Assembly (NCBI RefSeq): GCF_003612555.1
Contig: NZ_RAZF01000027.1
Location: 1-39,818 of the forward strand
Direction of reading: 5' to 3'
DNA: 39,818 nucleotides
DNA from: Acutalibacter sp. 1XD8-33
Lineage (GTDB): Bacteria; Bacillota; Clostridia; Oscillospirales; Acutalibacteraceae
Part shown: positions 18,726 through 27,616 of the stretch, piece by piece
Layout of the letters: every line of letters begins with the position of its first letter
How positions within the stretch are numbered: the first letter of the stretch is position 1
Notes under the pieces: generated by a model
Told to the model about the DNA's origin: nothing
Databases searched by the model: none
The model's input: the letters and a program-made list of their open reading frames with translations, nothing else
Translations under genes and position numbers: made by a program

Positions 18726-18764
18726 TTCCTTCAAATTAGTATGCTTCCTCGCCTCTTTCCATGC

Positions 18765-18804
18765 AAAAAGCAAGGGGGCGGGACCAAAGCCCCGCTCCCT
18801 TTTT
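18765..18804 (-). terminator. Terminator of the phage-like structural operon
   Basis: AAAAAGCAAGGGGGCGGG (18765-18782) pairs with CCCCGCTCCCTTTTT (18790-18804). On the minus strand it ends in a T run, 6 bases after the last structural gene. Its tidy position supports an intact, transcribed unit. Confidence 0.85.
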
Positions 18805-18810
18805 CGCTCT

Positions 18811-19272
18811 CTATTCCGCCGCAATCTCCCACTCCAGGTGGGCGGGCAGCAGCCGGTTCAGCATCCGCTCCGCCTCCGCCTGAGACACCCCCAGGCAGCG
18901 CTCCACCGTCAGCTTCACCTTTCCACCCTCCAGCGTCACCGTCCCCAGGATTCCGGCGGCCTCCACCAGATCCTTCAGCACCGCCAGAGTGACGGCGCCG
19001 CCGTACCCGGCCAGGGCCTTGGCCACCGTGCGCCTGCGGTCCGCCAGCTCTCCCGAGGAGGCCTGGGGCCGGTAGAGCCCCTCCCACCGGTCCAGCTGCC
19101 GGGCGGAAGCCGTGGCCGCGAAGAGGTCCTGTTCCAGCGCCTCCATCTCCTCCTCCAACGCCTGCAGCCCCGCCTCATAGGCGTTGATCTCCCAGTCCAC
19201 GGGGGTTTCCCCTGTCAGCTGATAGACGCCGCTTTCCGAAAGAATCCGGCGGATGTTCTCTCCCCCGGTCAT
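18811..19272 (-). CDS. Phage tail protein I-like (XkdU/YmfQ, DUF2313)
   Basis: 153 residues. DRWEGLYRP near the middle, the GRRRT-like ADRRRTVAKALAG, and the C-terminal VSQAEAERMLNRLLPAHLEW fit the YmfQ/XkdU family, peripheral baseplate proteins linking gpJ to tail fibres in contractile phages. The ATG overlaps the gpJ stop (ATGA) and GGAGGAGG lies 3 bases upstream. It is the last gene of the block: no tail fibre, holin or endolysin follows, only the terminator. Confidence 0.82.
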   Translation of the reverse strand: MTGGENIRRILSESGVYQLTGETPVDWEINAYEAGLQALEEEMEALEQDLFAATASARQLDRWEGLYRPQASSGELADRRRTVAKALAGYGGAVTLAVLKDLVEAAGILGTVTLEGGKVKLTVERCLGVSQAEAERMLNRLLPAHLEWEIAAE

Positions 19273-20333
19273 ATGCCTCCTCCTATCACAGTACCCCCGG
19301 CCACAGGCACAACGCCCGCCGTCCCTTCCACATCCGCGTTGCCGCTGGGAAAGGTCACCCGGCTGATAGCTGGATCCGCGTCCAGGATCACCCGGTTCAG
19401 ATCCCCCAGATAGACCGCGTCCCCAATCTTCCGCTCCCCAAACCACCGGGCCAAAGCTGCCTGCACCGCTGCCTTTGCCTTGGCAAAATCCGCCTCCGGT
19501 CGGACTTTTATATAGCAAGACAGATTGCACCGCCGGGTTGTGGCTGCTTTCACCGTCACGGCGACGCCGGCCTCCCCCATCTCCTGGAAGTCTCCCTCCA
19601 AAGCGGCCAGCGTTTCTGCGGAGGGTGCGGCCTTGTCTCCCCAGACATACACCGACACCGTGCCCGCGCCGTTCTCTCTGGGCACCGCCTGGGCATCTGT
19701 GACGCCCTCCCGGCTTAGGGCGATATTCTCATAATAGGCGGCGTTTCCCCAGACCAGCGGGCGGCTGTACGCCTCCAAAATCCGCCGGCGGTAGGCCTCG
19801 TCGTCCTCCGAATCCGTTCCGCCGGTAAACGGGGCGGGGTTCACCACATAGTTGATGCCGTTCACCTCCGTCACCAGGGTGTTGATATAGCTGGCCGCGG
19901 CGTTGCCCTTGCTGCCCCCGGCTACCGCCTGGGCGGGCACCTCCACGGTCACCTTCCCGGCTGGCAGGATTCCATCCTCCGTGGTCTCGTACTCTACGGC
20001 CTCGTCCCCATAGGCGGCGCATACCGTTCCCTTGGGAATCACCAGGTCAAAGGTGATGGGCACATACCGGGAAAAGGCCAGCACCCCCGCCGCTTTCCGG
20101 CTCTCCTTCCGGAGGACTCCTCTCTGGGCGCCGTGCAGGTCCAGCTGTGGGCCGTCCGCCGTGTGGGGGAAGGCCTGCCGCCAGAGCCAGTCCATCCTGG
20201 CCTCCGCCCGGTACAGCTCCCCGGCCAGCACCAGCAGCCGCAGCCCGATGTCCGACACGTCCTCTGGGCTGACCCCGCTTTTTTCCATATAGGCCGACCT
20301 CATCCTGTCCAAAATTTCTTTATAGGTTTCCAA
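19269..20333 (-). CDS. Baseplate J-like protein (XkdT/gpJ)
   Basis: 354 residues. GAQRGVLRKESRKAAGVLAF, the EYETTEDGILPAGKVTVEVP segment and GGTDSEDDEAYRRRILEAY are hallmark regions of the Baseplate_J family, which forms the wedge periphery of contractile baseplates. TTG 20333 is chosen: GGGGGAAG lies 6 bases upstream and the start overlaps the preceding gene by 14 bases. The longer frame upstream is shadow. Length is close to XkdT (about 350). It appears complete. Confidence 0.9.
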   Translation of the reverse strand: METYKEILDRMRSAYMEKSGVSPEDVSDIGLRLLVLAGELYRAEARMDWLWRQAFPHTADGPQLDLHGAQRGVLRKESRKAAGVLAFSRYVPITFDLVIPKGTVCAAYGDEAVEYETTEDGILPAGKVTVEVPAQAVAGGSKGNAAASYINTLVTEVNGINYVVNPAPFTGGTDSEDDEAYRRRILEAYSRPLVWGNAAYYENIALSREGVTDAQAVPRENGAGTVSVYVWGDKAAPSAETLAALEGDFQEMGEAGVAVTVKAATTRRCNLSCYIKVRPEADFAKAKAAVQAALARWFGERKIGDAVYLGDLNRVILDADPAISRVTFPSGNADVEGTAGVVPVAGGTVIGGGI

Positions 20334-20652
20334 TCTCCACTTCCCCCTCTCCCAGCGGCGTAACAATGGTAAACGCCATGCCGGCTTCCGTGCTTCTCGC
20401 CTGCTCCGCTCGGATTCCCGCAAGCCCCAGCAGCGCCTCATTGGCCAGAGCCAGGGCCCGGTCCTCCCTGTGCTCCTCCTGAGGGTCCAGCTGCCAGAGC
20501 CTGCTGCCCAGCTCCCTGTTATAGGGGAACTTCCCCCGGCGCAGCTCCAGGCTTATCCGGGCCCTCTGCAAAAGCTCCTCTAACCCTGACACAGTCTCCG
20601 GAAGGCCGGTAGGGCCCAAAACAAAATTGCCCTTCTCCACTTTCAAGTCCAC
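20320..20652 (-). CDS. Baseplate wedge protein, gp25/XkdS-like
   Basis: 110 residues. LQRARISLELRRGKFPYNRELGSRLWQL fits the gp25/W (XkdS, DUF2634) family that initiates baseplate wedge assembly. Start GTG at 20652 overlaps the TAG of the previous gene by one base (TAGTG), with GGGGAGG 7 bases upstream. Position between spike and gpJ is as in PBSX. Confidence 0.8.
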   Translation of the reverse strand: MDLKVEKGNFVLGPTGLPETVSGLEELLQRARISLELRRGKFPYNRELGSRLWQLDPQEEHREDRALALANEALLGLAGIRAEQARSTEAGMAFTIVTPLGEGEVEIGNL

Positions 20653-20978
20653 TAGCCGCCCTCCCCCCAGTCAAAGACATGGCCGTTCACCACGACCTGC
20701 CCATTGTTTTTTAAAAGGATCTCCGCTCCTCCGGCGGAGTACAGCCGGACCTCTCCGGCCGCCAGCTCCGGGTCCGGCAGGCGGGAGATCCCCGCGCAGT
20801 AGCCCCCCAGCATCACCGCCTGGTTTCCTCCCGCGGCCCAGCTGGAGAGGCCGTATGGCAAAAGCTGCTCCGGCTGTTCATAGCGGCTCTCCCCCTGCAC
20901 GGCGAAGCTCTCCTCCACCACCTGGCCGCTGCGCAGCTTCACGCCCTGCTCACCGGCCAATTTCTTTGTCAGCCACAT
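20652..20978 (-). CDS. Baseplate spike-like protein (gpV/gp45 type, short)
   Basis: 108 residues. The C-terminal half, GEVRLYSAGGAEILLKNNGQVVVNG, is the beta-helical spike segment typical of gpV/gp45-like proteins. The N-terminal OB-like domain seems reduced, since full gpV proteins are about 200 residues. It occupies the position of xkdR in PBSX. ATG 20978 has GGGGGGAGG close upstream and lies 29 bases inside the hub gene. Confidence 0.7.
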   Translation of the reverse strand: MWLTKKLAGEQGVKLRSGQVVEESFAVQGESRYEQPEQLLPYGLSSWAAGGNQAVMLGGYCAGISRLPDPELAAGEVRLYSAGGAEILLKNNGQVVVNGHVFDWGEGG

Positions 20979-21867
20979 GGTCCTCCCCCCTTTCCAGTAT
21001 AAACCGGGTCCGTTCGCCGTTCCTGTCCCGGCAGTACACTCCCCGGCGTACCGGACATCCGGCAAACCGCCCCACCTGGGGGATGGCCACGTCCGCCAAC
21101 ACCCCCCGCAGGGGCCACCAGCTCCCCGCGCAGGTCACCTGGAGCAGAAAACTCCCCCTGCGGGATTCCTCCAGAAGCGCCCGGGGATTCTTCCCGCTTT
21201 GGGCGCTTATATACCGCCGGCGTACCGCCGGGGCCTCCGGGTCGCTGTAGGCCACGTCGTAGCCGCCCCGGTATCCCTGCTTCCATACCTGGCTCAGCCG
21301 CTGACAGGGCAGCCTGCAGATCTCCGCCTCCATCACCTGGGAGAGCTCGATTTTCCTCTGGGGGATTCCCCCGCAGCACACCACGCCCTCAAAATCCACA
21401 TAGGGCTCCGTGTCCAGATAGTCCCGGCAGAAACCCGCCAGCACCGTCCAGCAGGAGGTCCCCTTCTCTATGTCCAGTTCTCCCGGCCCGCAGCTCCCGC
21501 TCCCAACGATCTTCTGGAACCCCAGCGGCCCCAAAAGCCTTTGGCGCAGGCTTTCCAGAGAGGGCGACTTCATCTTTCTGGGCTCCGCCTCGCTGTCCAG
21601 CAGCAGGGCCTCCCGGCTGCGGCAGACCAGCTCCACGAAAAGCCCCGCCGCCGTGAGCCTGGTGTTCTGCTCGTCCACGATTCCCCGGAACACGCCCTCT
21701 CCTCTGTCATAGACGCTCACCTCCCGCAGCTCCTCCCAGATCCTGTCCGCCGGAAACACCGCCTTCAGCTGATCGGCGGGGGCGTCCCGGTCAAAGGCCA
21801 GCACAGCCTCCTCCGGCTCCCCCAAAAGCATCTGGCCTCCCGAGGCCAGAGTCCCCCAATAGGTCAC
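20950..21867 (-). CDS. Baseplate hub protein, gpD/XkdQ-like
   Basis: 305 residues. VFRGIVDEQNTRLTAAGLFVELVCRSREALLLDSE is the classic opening of late-control gpD / XkdQ hub proteins, which cap the tail tube and hold the spike. It is rich in cysteine for this family (about eight), which is unusual. GTG 21867 is chosen: GGAGGTG lies 8 bases upstream and the GTGA overlaps the stop of the LysM gene. The upstream part of the frame is a shadow of that gene. Confidence 0.82.
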   Translation of the reverse strand: MTYWGTLASGGQMLLGEPEEAVLAFDRDAPADQLKAVFPADRIWEELREVSVYDRGEGVFRGIVDEQNTRLTAAGLFVELVCRSREALLLDSEAEPRKMKSPSLESLRQRLLGPLGFQKIVGSGSCGPGELDIEKGTSCWTVLAGFCRDYLDTEPYVDFEGVVCCGGIPQRKIELSQVMEAEICRLPCQRLSQVWKQGYRGGYDVAYSDPEAPAVRRRYISAQSGKNPRALLEESRRGSFLLQVTCAGSWWPLRGVLADVAIPQVGRFAGCPVRRGVYCRDRNGERTRFILERGEDHVADKEIGR

Positions 21868-22379
21868 GGAGCATACACCTCCTCTCCCGCCTCCAGGCAG
21901 GCGATATCCCGAATGTGCAGGTTGGCCCGGCGCAGCTCTTCCATATTCCACCCGAACCGGCCCGCATAGTCCCACAGGCTTTCCCCGGCGGCGGCTCTCA
22001 GGGCCTCCCGGCCCGGGCCGCCTTCCCCGGCCCGGCACTCCGTAAAGCCAAAGCCGTACTTCACAAGTCCGCTCCCCTCTTCCCCCAGCAGCTTAAGGGA
22101 ATCCATCACCGCGAAAAAGGGCTCCATGCCCGGCAGCAGCAGGCTCCCCGGCCCGCCCTGGGCAAAGACCTCCTCCAGCCGCCTCCACTGTTTCATGGCG
22201 TCCGCCCCAGTAAAATACCCCTCTCCGGACACCCTGCGCTTTTTGGGCCCCAGGTCCGCCGCCCAGCTGCCCGCGAAGGGCAGGGCCGTCTCCTTGAGGT
22301 TTCTGGCGCACTCCACGTTCAGGCTGGTGGGGTTCACCCGCCAGGTAAACCCCTTGAAGCTCATGGTCATCAGATTCAT
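21864..22379 (-). CDS. XkdP/gp53-like hub protein with C-terminal LysM
   Basis: 171 residues. The N-terminal part (FKGFTWRVNPTSLNVECARN) matches the hub/tail-assembly domain found in XkdP-like proteins; residues about 125-171 (AAAGESLWDYAGRFGWNMEELRRAN) form a LysM fold, which in baseplate hubs mostly serves assembly. In PBSX this gene follows the tape measure gene; here it follows a 30-codon ORF. The ATG overlaps that ORF's stop (ATGA). Confidence 0.82.
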   Translation of the reverse strand: MNLMTMSFKGFTWRVNPTSLNVECARNLKETALPFAGSWAADLGPKKRRVSGEGYFTGADAMKQWRRLEEVFAQGGPGSLLLPGMEPFFAVMDSLKLLGEEGSGLVKYGFGFTECRAGEGGPGREALRAAAGESLWDYAGRFGWNMEELRRANLHIRDIACLEAGEEVYAP

Positions 22380-22468
22380 TCCGTCCCCCCTTCCAGCTGA
22401 GAGGGATACCGTCGGCTGTCCCTCTGGATCTCCCGGCTCAATTCTTCCGCCCGCTCCATGCTCTCCAC
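22376..22468 (-). CDS. Thirty-residue ORF in the tape-measure position
   Basis: GTG 22468 is preceded by AAAGGAGG at 7 bases, and the stop overlaps the next gene (ATGA). The peptide opens VESMERAEELSREIQRDSRR, charged and probably one helix. I recognise no family. It could be a linker ORF that keeps translation coupled after loss of the tail block, a remnant of a chaperone or tape-measure gene, or a functional micro-protein. Confidence 0.55.
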   Translation of the reverse strand: MESMERAEELSREIQRDSRRYPSQLEGGTE

Positions 22469-22470
22469 GT

Positions 22471-23157
22471 TCACTCCTCCTTTACCAAAATCCCCGTCAG
22501 CGTCCCCGCGCCTCCGGCGGAAAAGCTCTTCCACCGGCAATGGCGGTACTCTCCCGCCTGGCCCCCCAGCCGCAGGGTAAAGTCCGTCCATTCGCCCAGG
22601 CCTTCCGCCCCGCTCAGGCCTTGTAGCTCCACGGTGTATTCATTTTTGTTTTGCATGAGAAACGGTTCGTCCTCTCCAACCGCCCGCAAGGCCCGGGCCT
22701 TCTCCCCTTGGGAGGCCTTCCAGCCGCTCACTCGAAGCTCCTGGTCGTTGATCCACACCGGATAGCTCTTTTTGCTTCCCGTTCCTCCCGTCTGCCCCGG
22801 CGGGGTGAACAGATACCAGCACGAGACCGCGATTCTCCCCGTGGCCTTGTCCACAGCGGCCGCGCCCCGCTCCATCTCCGCCAGATTGGCGTCCAGGGTC
22901 CCAGCCGCCTGGTCCATCCCCGCCAAAACGCCCTCTTCCGCGCCGGGCCTGGCGCTCCTGGGGAGATACAGGGTAAACCCCAGTTTTACCTCCCAGCTCT
23001 CCCCGGCGGATTTCTCCTTGAGGACGCTGCCCGCCGCCAGGATTTTCTCCCCCAGCCGGGGGACGGCTCCGGGCTCGTAGGCTGCCCGGAAATTCACCTG
23101 GGGCATCGCCTGCCGGAAAGCCTCCAGCAGCCCCTGCAGCAGCTCATTGCCCCGCAT
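22471..23157 (-). CDS. Phage tail-completion/neck-like protein, unusual two-part
   Basis: 228 residues. The first half (NELLQGLLEAFRQAMPQ, then a beta-rich stretch ending SWEVKLGFTLYLPRSA) resembles tail-terminator or completion proteins. The second half (YPVWINDQELRVSGWKASQG onwards to GTLTGILVKEE) is beta-rich and could derive from a tube-like or other tail protein. I cannot name the family with certainty. It starts 14 bases inside the preceding gene with GGAGGAAG upstream. It occupies the place between connectors and the LysM hub where terminator, sheath, tube, chaperones and tape measure would normally be. Confidence 0.55.
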   Translation of the reverse strand: MRGNELLQGLLEAFRQAMPQVNFRAAYEPGAVPRLGEKILAAGSVLKEKSAGESWEVKLGFTLYLPRSARPGAEEGVLAGMDQAAGTLDANLAEMERGAAAVDKATGRIAVSCWYLFTPPGQTGGTGSKKSYPVWINDQELRVSGWKASQGEKARALRAVGEDEPFLMQNKNEYTVELQGLSGAEGLGEWTDFTLRLGGQAGEYRHCRWKSFSAGGAGTLTGILVKEE

Positions 23158-23476
23158 CTTCCTCCACCTGCCTTTCCAAAACCAGCCTGTCGAAAACCTT
23201 CGTCCCCCCGATCTCCAGGGCCTCCGCCTTTAATACGCCGTAACGCCGTCCCCCCTGCTCCAGTATATCTCCAGGCGCCGCCCCAGCCGCGCTGCCGGTA
23301 AAGATATAGACCGGCTGGCAGAGAGTTCCTATCTCGTGGCGCTCTCCCGGGACATGCCCGCCGCTTTGGCCCTTCAGACGCGTCACCTCTCCCCGACAGG
23401 CCGTCCTAGAGCCGTCCGCCCGGACCAGCTCCCCGGCCTCCATCCTCCTGCTCACCGTCTTGGAAATGTCCTTCAC
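23144..23476 (-). CDS. Head-closure-like protein
   Basis: About 110 residues from GTG 23476 (GGGGAGG 10 bases upstream); an alternative is ATG 23497, which overlaps the previous stop as ATGA. The C-terminal half PGDILEQGGRRYGVLKAEALEIGG is a small beta-barrel pattern like SPP1 gp16-type head-closure proteins. Position after the connector supports this. Confidence 0.55.
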   Translation of the reverse strand: MKDISKTVSRRMEAGELVRADGSRTACRGEVTRLKGQSGGHVPGERHEIGTLCQPVYIFTGSAAGAAPGDILEQGGRRYGVLKAEALEIGGTKVFDRLVLERQVEEDAGQ

Positions 23477-23493
23477 CCCGTTTGAACCTCCCC

Positions 23494-23862
23494 TCATGCC
23501 TGGCCGAAGTAAAAGCCCTCCTCCCGGAGAAAGCCCCTGCACGCCCGGCGTTTTTCCTCCCGCAGCATGGCAGCGTACTCCGCCCGCCTGCCCAGCTCCA
23601 TCTTAAGCTCCGGCGAGCTCACCACCTCCGGTCCCGCCGCCTGATCCAAAAGCGCCAGCTGATAGAACGCCTCCGCAGCCGCCAGGGCCTCTGCGGCTTC
23701 GGGAATTTCTTCCAAGCCTGGGCGCAAAAGCTCCGCCACGGCCGCCGCGCACTCATCGCACAAAGCCTGGCACAGCCGCTCCCTTGCCACATCCTCCCCA
23801 TCGGGGGCTTCTCCCGCGTACCTTTGGAACTTTTCCACTACACGCTCCACACCGATCTCCAT
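23494..23862 (-). CDS. Head-tail connector-like protein
   Basis: 122 residues, predominantly helical and acidic (EEIPEAAEALAAAEAFYQLALLDQ), the size and composition of gp6/gp15-type connector proteins that sit below the portal. Start ATG 23862 has GGAGG 5 bases upstream; a longer TTG start at 23883 lacks one. It is separated from the capsid gene by 214 bases, the only large gap in the block. Confidence 0.6.
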   Translation of the reverse strand: MEIGVERVVEKFQRYAGEAPDGEDVARERLCQALCDECAAAVAELLRPGLEEIPEAAEALAAAEAFYQLALLDQAAGPEVVSSPELKMELGRRAEYAAMLREEKRRACRGFLREEGFYFGQA

Positions 23863-24076
23863 ATTCCCCTCCTGAAACAGCAATTTGACGAATACGGAAC
23901 GCGCTGGAAAGCCGGCTGAAATAGTAACCGCGCCTGCAACTATACCGGCCTCCCAGCAGGCGGCGCGCCGCCTGTTCCGCTTCTTTGTCCGAACCCTACG
24001 AATCTATGTCCCGGCCCAATCCATCCTCAGTGCCCTTCGGGTCCGAACCGTTCTCCTTTTCCAAAAATCAGGCGGC

Positions 24077-25084
24077 TCACGCCTTAGGCGTGCAGTCCAG
24101 GCCCGCCACCGCGTTGGGGAAGATTTTCGAAAAGCCGCAGGTCATGCTGATTGCCGCCCGTTCCAGCTGCTTGTCGATGAGCTTGTCGTAGTCTACAGAG
24201 ATCTCGCCGGCCTGCACCATCTCCAAAGCGCAGTTCTTGTCCAGAGCCAAAATTTTGTTCGCCGCCATCTCCGGCACATGGATAAGGTTTGCGCCCAGAG
24301 GACTGCACAGCTTACCCGTGCCCTGGAAGTTCATCCCGGCCTGGGCGTCTTTGAACTCCGGAATCTGTAAGAGCTTCTGGATGACGGCGGTGCCGGCCAC
24401 CACGGTGTTCAGCTCATAAGGAGCCAGCGCGGCCCACAGCGCCACAAAATCACCATAGTTCGGGGTGCCTCCCTCGGTGAACTCCAATGCGTTGTCCCCG
24501 GAGCCGGTCAGTACGTCTACCGCGTCCTTGGTCTGGGCAGCGGCGATATAGGCGCCAATCTGCCGCAGCGCCACGGTAAGCAGATCCAGCTTCTGAAAAC
24601 GCAGGGCTTCATAGGAGCTCACCAGCATCCGGCCCCGCTTCTGGAGCTTCACCAGGCTGGCGCTCATTCTGATATTGGTACTGGGCAGCTGGGACCCCTC
24701 GGCCGTCACCGCCAAAGCCGGGGCCGCGGTGTCCACATCGGTGGAGATGGGGCGGTAGTCCAGGGCGTCGATCTTCGTCACAGTAGCCACCAGGTCCTGA
24801 ATTTTGTTGGCACTCTCCATGCCCAGGGCCACTGCCCTAGAGACATATTCCGGGAACAGCGCCGCGCTGGAAGAGCTCTGGAAAAATTTTTCCACCGTGC
24901 CGGAGCCGGGCCCGCTCACCCTGATGCCAAAGCGCTTCAGCTGGCGCTGATAGGCGTCCAGCCCCTCCAGAGGGGTGCCCCGGTAGTTTTCCGAGCTGTC
25001 CAACTCCTCCAGCACCTGGGTAAAGCTCTTGCCCGGGGTGGAATACATGCCCTTCTCCAAAGAAACATTTTCGTAATAAGCCAT
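24077..25084 (-). CDS. Major capsid protein (HK97-fold)
   Basis: 335 residues. The pattern QRQLKRFGIRVSGPGSGTVEKFF, ALGMESANKIQDLVATVTKID and RGRMLVSSYEALRFQKLDLL, with a domain ending MTCGFSKIFPNAVAGLD, is that of XkdG-like HK97-fold capsid proteins. Length is close to XkdG (about 311). The frame is fully open and preceded by AGGAGG. No separate scaffold gene is seen; the upstream protease gene probably supplies it. Confidence 0.82.
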   Translation of the reverse strand: MAYYENVSLEKGMYSTPGKSFTQVLEELDSSENYRGTPLEGLDAYQRQLKRFGIRVSGPGSGTVEKFFQSSSSAALFPEYVSRAVALGMESANKIQDLVATVTKIDALDYRPISTDVDTAAPALAVTAEGSQLPSTNIRMSASLVKLQKRGRMLVSSYEALRFQKLDLLTVALRQIGAYIAAAQTKDAVDVLTGSGDNALEFTEGGTPNYGDFVALWAALAPYELNTVVAGTAVIQKLLQIPEFKDAQAGMNFQGTGKLCSPLGANLIHVPEMAANKILALDKNCALEMVQAGEISVDYDKLIDKQLERAAISMTCGFSKIFPNAVAGLDCTPKA

Positions 25085-25155
25085 ACTTTCTTCCTCCTAA
25101 AAATAATTTCTTTTTATTATGCGGCTTTCACCGCGAAGTCCGTGCCAAGAAAAGC

Positions 25156-26094
25156 CTAAATCCGGAACTCCCGGTTTTCCCCCTTTTCCCGGGTCTCCTC
25201 CCGGGGCTTCAGCTGAGGCGTCAGGGGCAGAATTTTCTGGGCCATCTGCCGGTAGGTTTTTTCCATCTGGGCCAGCTCGGCAATGCCCATGCCCTTTACA
25301 GCCGCCTCCATCACCGCTCTGGGCATATCCGGCTGAACCACCGCGCTGTACTTAAACACCTCGCGTTCCAGCTCCCGGCGGTACTCCTCCCCCCAACGGG
25401 CTTTTTCCGCCAGCTGCCGGAAGCGTCGCCCAATGCCCTCAATCTGCGCTTTTGTCAGCAGGACGTCCTCCGGCTTTTCCCAGAGCTTTTCCACCTCTTC
25501 CTGCTGGAACCGTTTCACCACTCCCGCTCCCCGCTGGGCGGGCACCGCCACAAAAGAGCACTCATAGGCGTCGGTAGGCTCCAGCAGAAGGCAGTGGGCC
25601 ACGGCGCCGCCATACTCCCGGCCTTTCTGATGCTTGCACTCCTCCTTGCCGCACACGCTGCAAACCCGGCGCTTCACGCTGCAGCTCACGCTTACTTCTT
25701 TTAGAATCCCGCTTTCAATCAGCTCAATCGTCTCCCCATTTCCCTTCGTTCTGGGGAGATACGCCCTGGCCGTCAGCTGAACCAGCTCCTCCCCTGTCTG
25801 GGTAGTCCGTCCGGGCTTGTGTTCCAGCCGTGTCTGATAGATTCGGGCGGTCTGGTTGGCGCTTTTGCACTCATGATCGAAAATGCAGGTCTTTCCCAGA
25901 AAAAGCTCTTTCAGCGCTTTCAGGCTCTCCACCGGGAACCGCTCCCAGTCCCTGTCCACCTCGTTGTCGCACAGCACCAGAGAAAACGCATATACCTCCT
26001 CCGGCGCGTAGGCCCGGCGAGTATACCGGTTGATGGCCTGCATCTCCTCTGGCCCTGGGATCTCTGTGGATTTCACCACTCGGCCTTCCTTCAT
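25156..26094 (-). CDS. Prohead protease/scaffold protein (XkdF-like) with zinc finger
   Basis: 312 residues. The N-terminal half looks like a herpes/HK97-type maturation protease: DNEVDRDWERFPVESLKAL, H74 in IFDHECKS and S135 in LKEVSVS as likely catalytic residues. CSVCGKEECKH at 145-155 is a CxxC-x4-CxH zinc-binding insert. Residues about 200-300 are charged and helical, as expected for a fused scaffold. The start overlaps the portal stop (ATGA). Confidence 0.75.
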   Translation of the reverse strand: MKEGRVVKSTEIPGPEEMQAINRYTRRAYAPEEVYAFSLVLCDNEVDRDWERFPVESLKALKELFLGKTCIFDHECKSANQTARIYQTRLEHKPGRTTQTGEELVQLTARAYLPRTKGNGETIELIESGILKEVSVSCSVKRRVCSVCGKEECKHQKGREYGGAVAHCLLLEPTDAYECSFVAVPAQRGAGVVKRFQQEEVEKLWEKPEDVLLTKAQIEGIGRRFRQLAEKARWGEEYRRELEREVFKYSAVVQPDMPRAVMEAAVKGMGIAELAQMEKTYRQMAQKILPLTPQLKPREETREKGENREFRI

Positions 26095-27236
26095 TGCTCC
26101 ACCTCTTTCTCTTTTTCGTTCCCCTTTTCCTTCTCCCGCTCCAGCTCATATTCCAGCTTGGCGGCTCTGGCGTTCAAATACCTGGCGTTGGCATGGTCCA
26201 CCTCGTCCTGCATGGTGATCTCGTCCCAAAGAATCTCGCACTCCGGCCGATAGCCCTCCAGGGCCAGCCAGGTGCGGCAGATTTTCTTGGCCACAGGGGT
26301 CAGAATCCGCCGGTAGGCCTCCAGCTCGCTGGTAAGCACATCCGCCTGCTGGCTGGACATCCGCTCTGTAGACGACCAGGACAGCCCCAGCAAGAAGGGG
26401 GGCAGCCCCAGCTTTGCCACAATCTGCTCCAGCATCTGGCGCACAGGCACATCGCTCTCCAGAATCTGATTGTCCGCGCCTATGGCTTTGATGGAAACGT
26501 CCCCCACGGCCACGAAGTCCCGGGGATCCCGGCTGCTCATGGCGGATTTCCATTCCTCCGCCATTTGCCGGGCCCGCTCCGCCGCGCCGTTAAGAACGCC
26601 TTCGGGCTTGCAGGTCACGGCGAACCTCACATTGCCCAGCCGGTCCCAGTTCACCCCCAGGGTCTGGTAGATCTTCAGCAACACATCGCTGACAAAGGGC
26701 AGCCCCCGCAAAAGGGAAGTGCCCCAGGGCGAGCCCGCCGGTGGATTCAGCGCCGACACCACCAGCAGCTCCGGATACTGGCACTCCCTCTTTCCGTCCG
26801 ACTCCCAGACGGAAACTTTGACTCCCATGGCCTGGTCCGCCTCCAGGCTCAGATGCTGGAGCCCGGCATTATACAGCGCTCCCAGCCGCCCCCCGGAAAG
26901 GACCATCTCCCCCACGGCGTTGCCATACGTAATCAGTTCCTCCAGATAGATGCCCAGGAACTCGTTGATTCCGGCCCCGGCCGCGTTCACCTGCACATTC
27001 TGCAAAAAATCATTCAGCCTCTCCTGGGCCTCTTCCTCATGGCAGACCGCCTGAACTTCCCCGATCAGCCTGCGCAGTTTATACACCGACGCGTCAATAA
27101 TCGGCACCGACTCCCGCAGCGCCCGATACAGCTCCCGTTCCCCCGCTCCCAGGGGTAAGGCACTCCCTTGGAGCTTTGGCCTTGTCTGCACGCTTACCGC
27201 CGCGGCCTGGGCTTCCTTTTTCCGCAAACCCAGCAT
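26091..27236 (-). CDS. Phage portal protein (XkdE-like)
   Basis: 381 residues. Typical portal segments are YLEELITYGNAVGEMVLSGG, ALNPPAGSPWGTSLLRGLPFVSDVLLKI and the wing/crown region VRQMLEQIVAKLGLPPFLLGLSW with SSQQADVLTSELEAYRRIL. The C-terminus is highly charged. It forms the dodecameric DNA gate of the capsid in phages. No terminase lies upstream: the next genes are TM2 proteins on the other strand. AAAGGAG lies 10 bases before the ATG. Confidence 0.85.
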   Translation of the reverse strand: MLGLRKKEAQAAAVSVQTRPKLQGSALPLGAGERELYRALRESVPIIDASVYKLRRLIGEVQAVCHEEEAQERLNDFLQNVQVNAAGAGINEFLGIYLEELITYGNAVGEMVLSGGRLGALYNAGLQHLSLEADQAMGVKVSVWESDGKRECQYPELLVVSALNPPAGSPWGTSLLRGLPFVSDVLLKIYQTLGVNWDRLGNVRFAVTCKPEGVLNGAAERARQMAEEWKSAMSSRDPRDFVAVGDVSIKAIGADNQILESDVPVRQMLEQIVAKLGLPPFLLGLSWSSTERMSSQQADVLTSELEAYRRILTPVAKKICRTWLALEGYRPECEILWDEITMQDEVDHANARYLNARAAKLEYELEREKEKGNEKEKEVEQ

Positions 27237-27243
27237 AACCGCC

Positions 27244-27279
27244 TCACTCCTTTCCAGAAAGATGTTTTCTCGATCTCAT
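27244..27279 (-). CDS. Possible 11-residue leader peptide before the portal gene
   Basis: GAAAGGAGG and an ATG 5 bases later open MRSRKHLSGKE and stop 7 bases before the portal ATG; the portal ribosome site AAAGGAG lies inside the end of this mini-ORF. The arrangement would couple portal translation to it. The sequence 27280-27435 upstream is A/T-rich (T and A tracts near 27355-27372) with no confident promoter. Confidence 0.4.
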   Translation of the reverse strand: MRSRKHLSGKE

Positions 27280-27435
27280 GCAAACCTCCTTTCATATACC
27301 CCTCAAAAACCCGCTTCTGTAGCCTAGAAAAAGACAACTTTTCCCCAAAAACAAAAAATTTTTTAAAAAAATCCCGTTCTGCTTCCAAAAAACCGACCTA
27401 CTGTTTAAGAATCCCTTACTTTTGCCCGCAAGCTA

Positions 27436-27464
27436 TTGCGTCCCCCGCTCCTTCGTGCTATAGT
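27436..27464 (+). promoter_or_regulatory. Promoter of the TM2 gene pair
   Basis: TTGCGT (27436-27441) and TATAGT (27459-27464) with a 17-base spacer. The resulting RNA would begin just before the tandem hairpins at 27472-27559. Confidence 0.6.
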
Positions 27465-27471
27465 TAACACA

Positions 27472-27559
27472 GTTCAAAGAATCCTCGGATTCCTCTGAAC
27501 CCGACGGGGAGGTTAACGCCTCCTAAGCCGCCTGGCTTAAAAACCGCGTTACCGGTTTT
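27472..27559 (+). promoter_or_regulatory. Four tandem hairpins in the TM2 leader
   Basis: A nested hairpin (GTTCA..GAATCC-TC-GGATTC..TGAAC, 27472-27500) is followed by three that abut without spacing: GGAGG/CCTCC (27508-27523), TAAGCC/GGCTTA (27524-27539), AAAACCG/CGGTTTT (27540-27559). The second resembles the hairpin at about 29564-29576 (loop TAACG kept, stem changed), so this may be a member of the dispersed module family. Role unknown. Confidence 0.55.
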
Positions 27560-27616
27560 CAAGCGTGTTTCCATGGAATGTCGGCAGAGCAAAATTACGC
27601 GAAGAGGTGCATCAAT

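Follow-up and report, generated by a model that had tools for sequence, protein, structure and literature searches.

A sheathless head-and-baseplate operon of Acutalibacter likely encodes a domesticated phage particle resembling gene transfer agents

The window, that is, the whole 39,818-nucleotide stretch of Acutalibacter sp. 1XD8-33 that was analyzed (contig NZ_RAZF01000027.1), contains 13 coding segments, all open and on the minus strand, which run from portal (27236) to gpI (18811). As can be seen in Table 1, their order (portal, capsid, connectors, hubs, wedges) is that given in an earlier note made from the sequence alone. Most of the protein names in that note are backed by family matches (portal, capsid, hubs and gpJ), but the protease/scaffold, for which the NCBIfam hint is weak (E 0.005), and the spike are named mainly by their position. 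Family searches with connector 1 returned no informative match, and connector 2 was not detected in the related loci L028 and L029, which have no room for it either. The starts in the ORF list lie too far upstream for several genes; translations and the lengths of the relatives' proteins place the probable starts at ~21867 for gpD, ~20978 for the spike and ~19272 for gpI, and that of gpJ is probably near 20345. The single closing terminator proposed earlier is visible as a stem-loop with a T-run, but this stem-loop is absent from the list of a consensus terminator scan (10 terminators vs. 8.8 in shuffled sequences); no promoter was found by a promoter consensus scan. Within the unit there is, as previously noted, no sign of a sheath, chaperone or long tape measure, nor of genes for terminase, fibres, lysis, integrase or repressor.

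Table 1. Features of the particle locus, in window coordinates
Feature	Position	Strand	Basis or remark
Portal protein, 381 aa	26091..27236	-	phrog_30703, E 7e-120
Probable head maturation protease/scaffold, 312 aa	25156..26094	-	Position between portal and capsid; phrog_16951 (function unknown)
Major capsid protein, 335 aa	24077..25084	-	PF25209; phrog_3922, E 9e-84
Head-tail connector 1 (adaptor position), 129 aa	23494..23883	-	Position and conservation
Head-tail connector 2 (stopper position), 132 aa	23144..23542	-	Position and conservation
Tail terminator fused to tail tube, 228 aa	22471..23157	-	Predicted structure; comparisons with stand-alone terminators and tubes
~30-aa peptide with ELSREIQRDSRRYP, stump of tape-measure-slot ORF	22376..22468	-	Motif comparison
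LysM hub (DNA_circ_N + LysM), 171 aa	21864..22379	-	PF07157 and PF01476
gpD-like baseplate hub, ~305 aa	20950..21867	-	phrog_177, E 1.5e-8; start from translation
Probable baseplate spike, ~108 aa	20652..20978	-	Position; weak phrog_25991 (function unknown); kept in relatives
gp25/XkdS-like wedge (sheath initiator family), 110 aa	20320..20652	-	PF10934 below cut-off; phrog_120, E 5e-8
gpJ baseplate wedge	19269..20441	-	Baseplate_J PF04865, E 3e-48
gpI-like wedge (Mu Gp48/gpI), ~153 aa	18811..19272	-	PF10076 below cut-off; phrog_521, E 5e-10
Closing stem-loop and T-run, 3' of gpI	18762..18812	-	Fold -27.4 kcal/mol, z -3.6
342-bp gap, portal to divergent TM2 genes	27237..27577	.	TerS-TerL site in G012, G021 and G022

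The tail stem, which the earlier note had declared entirely missing, tube included, is in fact represented by a terminator and one tube domain, since the 228-aa ORF combines a tail terminator and a tube in one fusion protein, the tube making up its C-terminal half. In the AlphaFold model of this protein (pLDDT 89.8), ~130 residues match lambda gpU, and comparisons relate residues 1-124 to stand-alone terminators (P 7e-14) and residues 130-228 to stand-alone tubes (P 5e-13). The model of a stand-alone tube matches the tubes of RcGTA (6tba), diffocin and PVC. Searches against solved structures with the portal and fusion sequences gave nothing significant, and the fusion protein had no match in phage records. 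The widened TrTb model also picks up stand-alone terminators, and its column was therefore left out of the counts.

Connector 1 and gpD are only 1459 bp apart, an interval without a sheath in which the tape-measure slot holds the ~30-aa stump. Of 27 sheath-bearing loci, 20 have an ORF of 96-229 aa that ends in a motif similar to ELSREIQRDSRRYP; of 50 sheathless loci, 36 carry such a motif in a short ORF (median 40 aa). None of the 107 loci with both ends could accommodate a normal tape measure, because the connector-to-hub interval never exceeds 4.2 kb and the largest unassigned ORF has 229 aa; longer frames in L155 and L187 (520 and 478 aa, respectively) match the chaperone model. These data support the earlier proposal that the capsid is joined almost directly to the baseplate, and suggest that roughly one ring is all that remains of the tail between the two.

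The capsid gene is present in 22 of the 29 genomes of the genus, and the gene order is identical in all genus stretches fetched. A deletion unique to strain 1XD8-33 can thus be rejected, as the relatives share the stemless layout. More broadly, of 395 genomes sampled across the order 101 have a member of the portal family, and within the bacterial family the portal is present in 51 of the 60 sampled. Together the relatives form a graded series, from a sheathed tail through a sheathless baseplate to no baseplate at all. The sheath was detected in only 5/29 genus genomes, which speaks against a tail borrowed from elsewhere, the alternative raised in the note; the one candidate donor in the strain's own genome was rejected, as its sheath belongs to an ordinary prophage, which has a gpJ of its own as well as a tape-measure-like ORF of 1062 aa. 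The structural genes are under purifying selection, with dN/dS values of 0.04-0.38, rather than near 1, for nine genes (portal, protease and connector 2 left out) in the three pairs formed by G008, G010 and G020, the closest ones. Values in deeper gene pairs (0.42-1.86) neither support nor exclude selection because synonymous sites look saturated or biased. Both the relatives' layout and dN/dS support a streamlined, conserved and domesticated particle; the earlier note had envisaged a streamlined, possibly domesticated one. That note covered neither the wider family with its intermediate grades, nor the original terminase kept in three relatives, nor a second locus, which encodes a terminase, a repressor and lysis proteins.

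This original terminase, a TerS-TerL pair, lies between the TM2 genes and the portal in G012, G021 and G022. TerL adjoins the portal in 81 of the 99 loci (of 177 distinct loci) with more than 2.5 kb of upstream sequence, and the 18 loci without it comprise 16 from window or genus genomes (assigned by contig match), L056, which has no genus assignment, and L107 from outside the genus. In 19 of the 22 capsid-bearing genus genomes no terminase was found beside the portal, and the window locus has none either. A TerL on contig 106 of G000 was considered as the lost terminase and rejected, since it sits in a prophage with no adjoining gene of the particle family. The second locus, as seen in G000, encodes a TerL (Terminase_3, E 4e-53), an S24 repressor, a holin and an amidase, and its TerS matches GP3_package over the cut-off in all three cases tested. 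Its TerS/TerL occur in the same genome as the window locus. TerS, TerL and the S24 repressor are conserved in this locus, accompanied by lysis genes in many genomes. This different terminase (TerL2), usually with the repressor, is present in 18/19 capsid-bearing genomes without the portal-side enzyme (TerL1), and in 0/3 of those keeping it, TerL1 absence being scored at the locus and, for G014 and G020, in the genome. In G023, which has the particle locus, neither terminase was found. The complementary pattern amounts to few events because the three TerL1 genomes fall into a single clade and the completeness of G021 is only 81%. Distances measured at the two loci are correlated (r 0.70-0.88), which is what vertical inheritance of both would produce.

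The cluster thus displays hallmarks of a gene transfer agent (GTA): it is kept vertically at a chromosomal site, its structural genes are constrained (nine genes, three close pairs), and reading of the ORFs revealed no integration or replication genes in or beside it. We consider it likely that this operon encodes the structural proteins of a GTA-like phage particle that has been domesticated and is inherited vertically, probably a relative of the particles with which some bacteria exchange DNA. That it packages and transfers DNA, and that the two loci are linked, are predictions. Portal, protease and capsid would form a small head, and the connectors, one terminator-tube ring, the LysM/gpD hub, the spike and the gp25-gpJ-gpI wedges a stub tail. 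Built from these parts, the particle would be podovirus-like though derived from a myovirus baseplate, and could not contract. DNA would have been packaged in the ancestral element by the TerS/TerL adjoining the portal, which the second-locus terminase probably replaced in this lineage. Inactivation of the S24 repressor, in an SOS-type response, would let holin and endolysin free the particles, whose LysM domain and hub may contact the cell wall, with DNA leaving via the one-ring tube.

A DNA-free particle, either an empty-headed bacteriocin or a protein carrier, with the second locus belonging to something else, is an unlikely alternative. It would account for the nine measured genes being still constrained although most of the genus lacks TerL1 in the operon, and for the persistence of the second locus where the particle locus is not intact (G016, G018 and G024; G028 and G011 have TerL2 alone or with a weak repressor match). 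Moreover, no operator shared by the two loci was found, as the operator-like site of the second locus was not detected upstream of the portal. The last two points, like the absence of a terminase from the window locus, count against the GTA-like reading. However, the portal, connectors and terminator, which matter for packaging and retaining DNA, have all been retained, and the second TerS/TerL occurs in 18 of the 19 genomes that do not have the first pair and in none of the three that do. That the locus is instead a decaying prophage remnant on its way to being lost is very improbable. Broken copies do exist: G016 and G001 carry internal deletions, the capsid gene of G010 contains an element and that of G004 is split. 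Moreover, no portal was found in G018, G024, G028, G011 and G019. Yet the ORFs are open and the layout constant across species whose full-length capsid sequences diverge from that of the window by 25-37%, the three informative pairs show constraint, and the portal is found in most sampled genomes of the family. It is hardly credible that the locus is a mobile prophage or satellite using helper-phage parts, for although 347 relatives are catalogued as viral contigs in IMG/VR and others as phage records, and a serine recombinase lies upstream of L218, a sheath-bearing relative, the TM2 gene pair is found upstream in 17/17 genus loci with sequence reaching there, no integrase was seen beside the locus, and in MT835508, a "phage" record of 46.7 kb, 7 of the 8 large ORFs that were tested on either side of the cluster are ordinary bacterial genes. 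In the window, the ORF list, once read and matched to relatives, gives TM2 genes, metG, D-Ala-D-Ala carboxypeptidase and PGI as neighbors; the last two lie downstream in 7/20 genus loci, and other species have different genes on that side.

Compared with known systems, the GTA-like particle proposed here shares baseplate proteins of the same kind with R-type tailocins, diffocins and eCIS, and the tube model matches the tubes of diffocin and PVC. Those systems are headless and have a long contractile, multi-ring tail, in contrast to the window, which has a head (portal and capsid), no sheath and a single fused terminator-tube protein. RcGTA, from Alphaproteobacteria, is likewise encoded by a vertically kept phage-like head-tail cluster, with genes in more than one locus, but has a siphovirus-like tail; its tube (6tba) is matched by the stand-alone tube model. 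The order portal-protease-capsid-connectors, then LysM hub-gpD-spike-gp25-gpJ-gpI, is common to the window and PBSX of Bacillus subtilis. In PBSX, a sheath, a free tube, chaperones and a long tape measure separate the connectors from the LysM hub, whereas the window lacks sheath and long tape measure and has its tube fused to the terminator. PBSX is named as a Gram-positive GTA-like system in PMC12946183, which also outlines what appears, by the description of its genes, to be the closest precedent, FpGTA of Faecalibacterium. According to this outline, FpGTA forms ~40 nm particles with ~9 kb of DNA and no visible tail, is called podovirus-like, and is encoded by a chromosomal TerS-TerL-portal-scaffold-capsid cluster in a related gut anaerobe, with baseplate and lysis genes in a second operon. 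The division of labor differs, since FpGTA has its terminase with the head genes and its baseplate with the lysis genes, whereas the window combines head and baseplate in one operon, terminase and lysis genes forming the second locus. Among the other titles and abstract openings retrieved from the literature, none describes this locus.

A wider reading, for and against which we find the scales about level, is that an ancient family of domesticated particles for DNA transfer exists in Oscillospirales, and that their contractile tail was dismantled stepwise. The tape measure would have been shortened, the sheath lost several times and the tube fused to terminator or connector; in some clades a fibre-like domain fused to the terminator would replace the baseplate, and in one genus the packaging motor would have been exchanged for a different terminase, encoded together with the repressor and lysis genes. 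The tail could thereby have been reduced to one ring without loss of function. If this is true, gene-transfer-like particles would be commonly inherited across a major order of gut bacteria, beyond Faecalibacterium, of which a 16S probe found no genome among the 395 of the order; the 101 with the portal family give a measure of its possible reach. The family also offers a natural series (sheathed tail, one-ring tail, no baseplate), which makes the setting of tail length and the change from myovirus to podovirus-like form testable by comparing living relatives.

The window is the entire contig C23 of the 3.6-Mb genome G000, and its particle locus encodes, in minus-strand order, a portal, a probable protease/scaffold, a capsid, two connectors, a 228-aa protein, a short peptide, a LysM hub, a gpD hub, a probable spike, gp25, gpJ and gpI. 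All of these ORFs are open, mostly overlapping or nearly so, and a strong stem-loop with a T-run ends the unit. The PBSX-type order and the openness claimed by the earlier note are therefore confirmed, as is a terminator-like structure at its end. Within the locus, no gene was seen for a sheath, a long tape measure, a terminase, a fibre, lysis, an integrase or a repressor.

Coordinates of features in the window and in other stretches
Feature	Sequence	Position	Strand
Particle locus (portal to gpI)	Window	27236-18811	-
Fusion gene (228 aa)	Window	22471-23157	-
CotJA and CotJB, adjoining the second-locus repressor	L241 (G000 contig 50)	7592-8205	
Serine recombinase of a sheath-bearing relative	L218 (viral contig)	543-1979	
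Particle locus with internal deletion, genome G016	L276	9639-15210	

The tail tube, which the same note had listed as missing, is present as the C-terminal half of the 228-aa protein. Family searches gave no match to any family for this protein. In its AlphaFold model (25-row alignment, pLDDT 89.8), ~130 residues match gpU, the tail terminator of lambda, with a TM-score of 0.55-0.65 by target length. Relatives have stand-alone terminators and stand-alone tube proteins; profile comparisons align residues 1-124 with the former (P 7e-14) and residues 130-228 with the latter (P 5e-13), and give no match between the two families. Terminator and tube are thus, as judged from profiles and models, a single fused chain. 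The model of a stand-alone tube (pLDDT 81.7) matches neck/tube proteins of phage 812, diffocin and RcGTA, among others. Four relatives (L076, L078, L081 and L084) have the tube half attached to connector 2, not to the terminator.

The short peptide occupies the slot immediately before the LysM hub. Among 27 sheath-bearing loci, 20 have in this slot an ORF of 96-229 aa that ends in a motif like LSRxxQRDARRYDGGF, which was not found there in the other seven. An ORF with a similar motif, of median length 40 aa, fills the slot in 36 of 50 sheathless loci, a few of which (e.g., L040 and L071) look like chance pattern matches. From its position and common C terminus, the slot ORF may be read as a shrunken tape measure. 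Counted from the GTG after the fusion gene, the window's peptide would have ~30 aa; the ORF list has it begin at an ATG further upstream, giving 71 aa. A helix rises 0.15 nm per residue, and 30 residues would thus span about one tube ring. There is no room for a normal tape measure in any of the 107 loci with both ends (70 loci lacking one end were left out), where the connector 1-to-gpD interval is at most 4.2 kb and contains no unassigned ORF above 229 aa; the frames of 520 aa in L155 and 478 aa in L187, which exceed this, match a chaperone model.

This layout is not a unique deletion in one strain, the outcome that the earlier note had named as fatal to its reading, because the capsid gene occurs in 22 of 29 genus genomes, and the genus stretches fetched have the identical gene order, with the same direct connector-to-hub step. 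In L028 and L029, there is no space for connector 2, the fusion gene starting ~20 nt past connector 1; connector 2 also went undetected in L032 and L046. Upstream, a pair of TM2-domain genes is found in 17/17 genus loci with sequence there. Downstream, a D-Ala-D-Ala carboxypeptidase and PGI follow in 7 of 20 loci; the other flanks, each with 3 kb or more of sequence, have different neighbours, one with a weaker carboxypeptidase. A genome scan with the portal yielded 184 stretches encoding a relative, 80 of which were kept, with matches including Neglectibacter sp. X58, Bacterium D16-76 and Anaeromassilibacillus senegalensis An867. The portal was present in 101 of 395 genomes drawn evenly from the order (51/60 in the window's family) and in 14 of 392 drawn from the class; 12 of these 14 had already come up in the order-wide search, another (471 bits) comes from outside the order, and the last is a weak match.

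Another pattern named as contrary, dN/dS near 1 in all genes, is absent from three close pairs among genomes G008, G020 and G010, which gave 0.04-0.38 over nine genes (portal, protease and connector 2 excluded), the pairs not being independent and the G010 capsid being interrupted. A portal-adjoining terminase (TerL1) was not found at the locus in any of these genomes, as judged for G020 by genome-wide search. Deeper pairs gave 0.42-1.86 and are unusable because synonymous differences were low, probably through saturation or codon bias. Broken copies also occur. In G016, the head genes have been deleted, which leaves residues 1-187 of the portal joined in frame to residue 34 onwards of connector 1; matches to the neck and baseplate genes persist. 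A larger deletion in G001 (60% complete; contig 129, L281) joins the start of the protease gene to the end of the gpD gene, keeping portal and distal baseplate genes, and could be an assembly error given this low completeness. An element carrying a Tn916-type integrase (PF02920, PF00589) interrupts the G010 capsid gene, whose pieces lie ~126 kb apart on contig 16 (L146, L046), and the G004 capsid gene is split. Such frequent loss in single species would be expected of a costly, non-essential trait. By eye, similar-looking genes lie beside a lone diverged capsid copy on G007 contig 72 (L047).

Sheath and gpJ states were both known for 97 of 177 distinct loci: 22 have both, 50 have gpJ without sheath and 25, including a copy cut by an inserted element (L058), have neither. 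The sheath of L122 was confirmed by Pfam (PF04984, E 8e-13). Some of the loci with neither (L089, L109, L117 and others) have the terminator fused to a domain resembling a small fibre-like protein found after gpI elsewhere. On a 168-locus tree built from portal, protease and capsid, parsimony, with unknown states left free, required six changes for sheath, seven for gpJ and three for terminase. Midpoint rooting places sheath-bearing lineages basally; reconstruction at the root is ambiguous for the sheath, and reading the changes as losses thus rests on phage ancestry. Within the genus, G012, G021 and G022 have TerS-TerL in the interval from the TM2 genes to the portal, and two other groups lack it. 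Of the relatives that clearly fall outside the genus, L107 alone has upstream sequence without a TerL adjoining the portal. Four stretches (L148, L150, L151 and L152) are arranged differently: TerS-TerL-portal-protease-capsid-connector is followed by small unassigned genes and a gpD-like hub, after which the stretch has no further cluster genes. In L218, a serine recombinase some 6 kb or further upstream of the terminase may indicate that this relative is still mobile. Record MT835508 (46.7 kb; L048), catalogued as a human-faecal phage, has a copy of the cluster amid apparent bacterial chromosome, 7/8 large flanking ORFs tested being NrdD, SecY, RnfC-like, ABC transporters and the like.

A Pfam search found a terminase in 27 of 29 genus genomes: 23 (16 + 7) have a single type in the fetched stretch, TerL2 (Terminase_3, E 4e-53), housed in a second locus; three have the family's own TerL, and the G001 match was left untyped. 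Of 19 capsid-bearing genomes without TerL1, 18 have TerL2, G023 being the one where it was not found, and of the three retaining TerL1 none has it; these counts rest on genomes 63-100% complete and, for G014 and G020, on genome-wide search alone for the absence of TerL1. A TerL1-family profile had no match in 13 of these 19; its match in G000 was rejected as the family's terminase, since it sits in a prophage. Among 250 family genomes, eight have a strong TerL2 match (E 1e-60 or better), four of them in the genus. Of the 16 stretches fetched earlier, 15 have a TerS gene next to TerL2, and 15 likewise have a divergent HTH-S24 repressor there; TerS matched GP3_package above cut-off in 3/3 tested. 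A holin (PF05105) and an amidase (PF01510) come next in G000. This holin type occurs in 8/16 stretches, and the following gene in L243 is of another holin type. The spore-coat genes CotJA and CotJB adjoin the repressor in 4/16 loci, including that of G000.

These parts suggest a particle with a small head, a one-ring stub tail and a baseplate, which would not contract, DNA exiting through ring and hub. Packaging would be performed by the second-locus terminase, and release by its lysis genes upon repressor inactivation. The closest precedent is FpGTA of Faecalibacterium, from a report that finds GTA-like packaging in Oscillospiraceae and other families too, with a candidate operon named for Faecalibacterium only (PMC12946183). 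A 16S probe for Faecalibacterium found no genome among the 395, and beyond that report, a search of titles and abstract openings found no description of the particle locus.

The weakest step is the functional link between the two loci, which we favor by a narrow margin. Distances at the two loci correlate (r 0.70-0.88, 13-16 genomes), as expected from common vertical descent alone, and in the single contig of G003, ~1.7 Mb separate the loci along the shorter arc, if the contig is circular. Counting against a link, the second locus occurs without an intact particle locus in G016, G018 and G024, and no copy of its operator-like site, TTGACA-N3-TGTCAA with an overlapping -35-like box, was found upstream of portal. 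G028 and G011 have TerL2 without a good repressor match or an intact particle locus. About 175-250 nt upstream of portal, genus loci including L033, L036, L038, L040, L042 and L043 carry a 24-bp inverted repeat, AAGTTGTCCTC-N2-GAGGACAACTT, whose arms vary in other species and of which the window has no clear copy; with the T-run that follows it, this repeat looks like an attenuator or operator.
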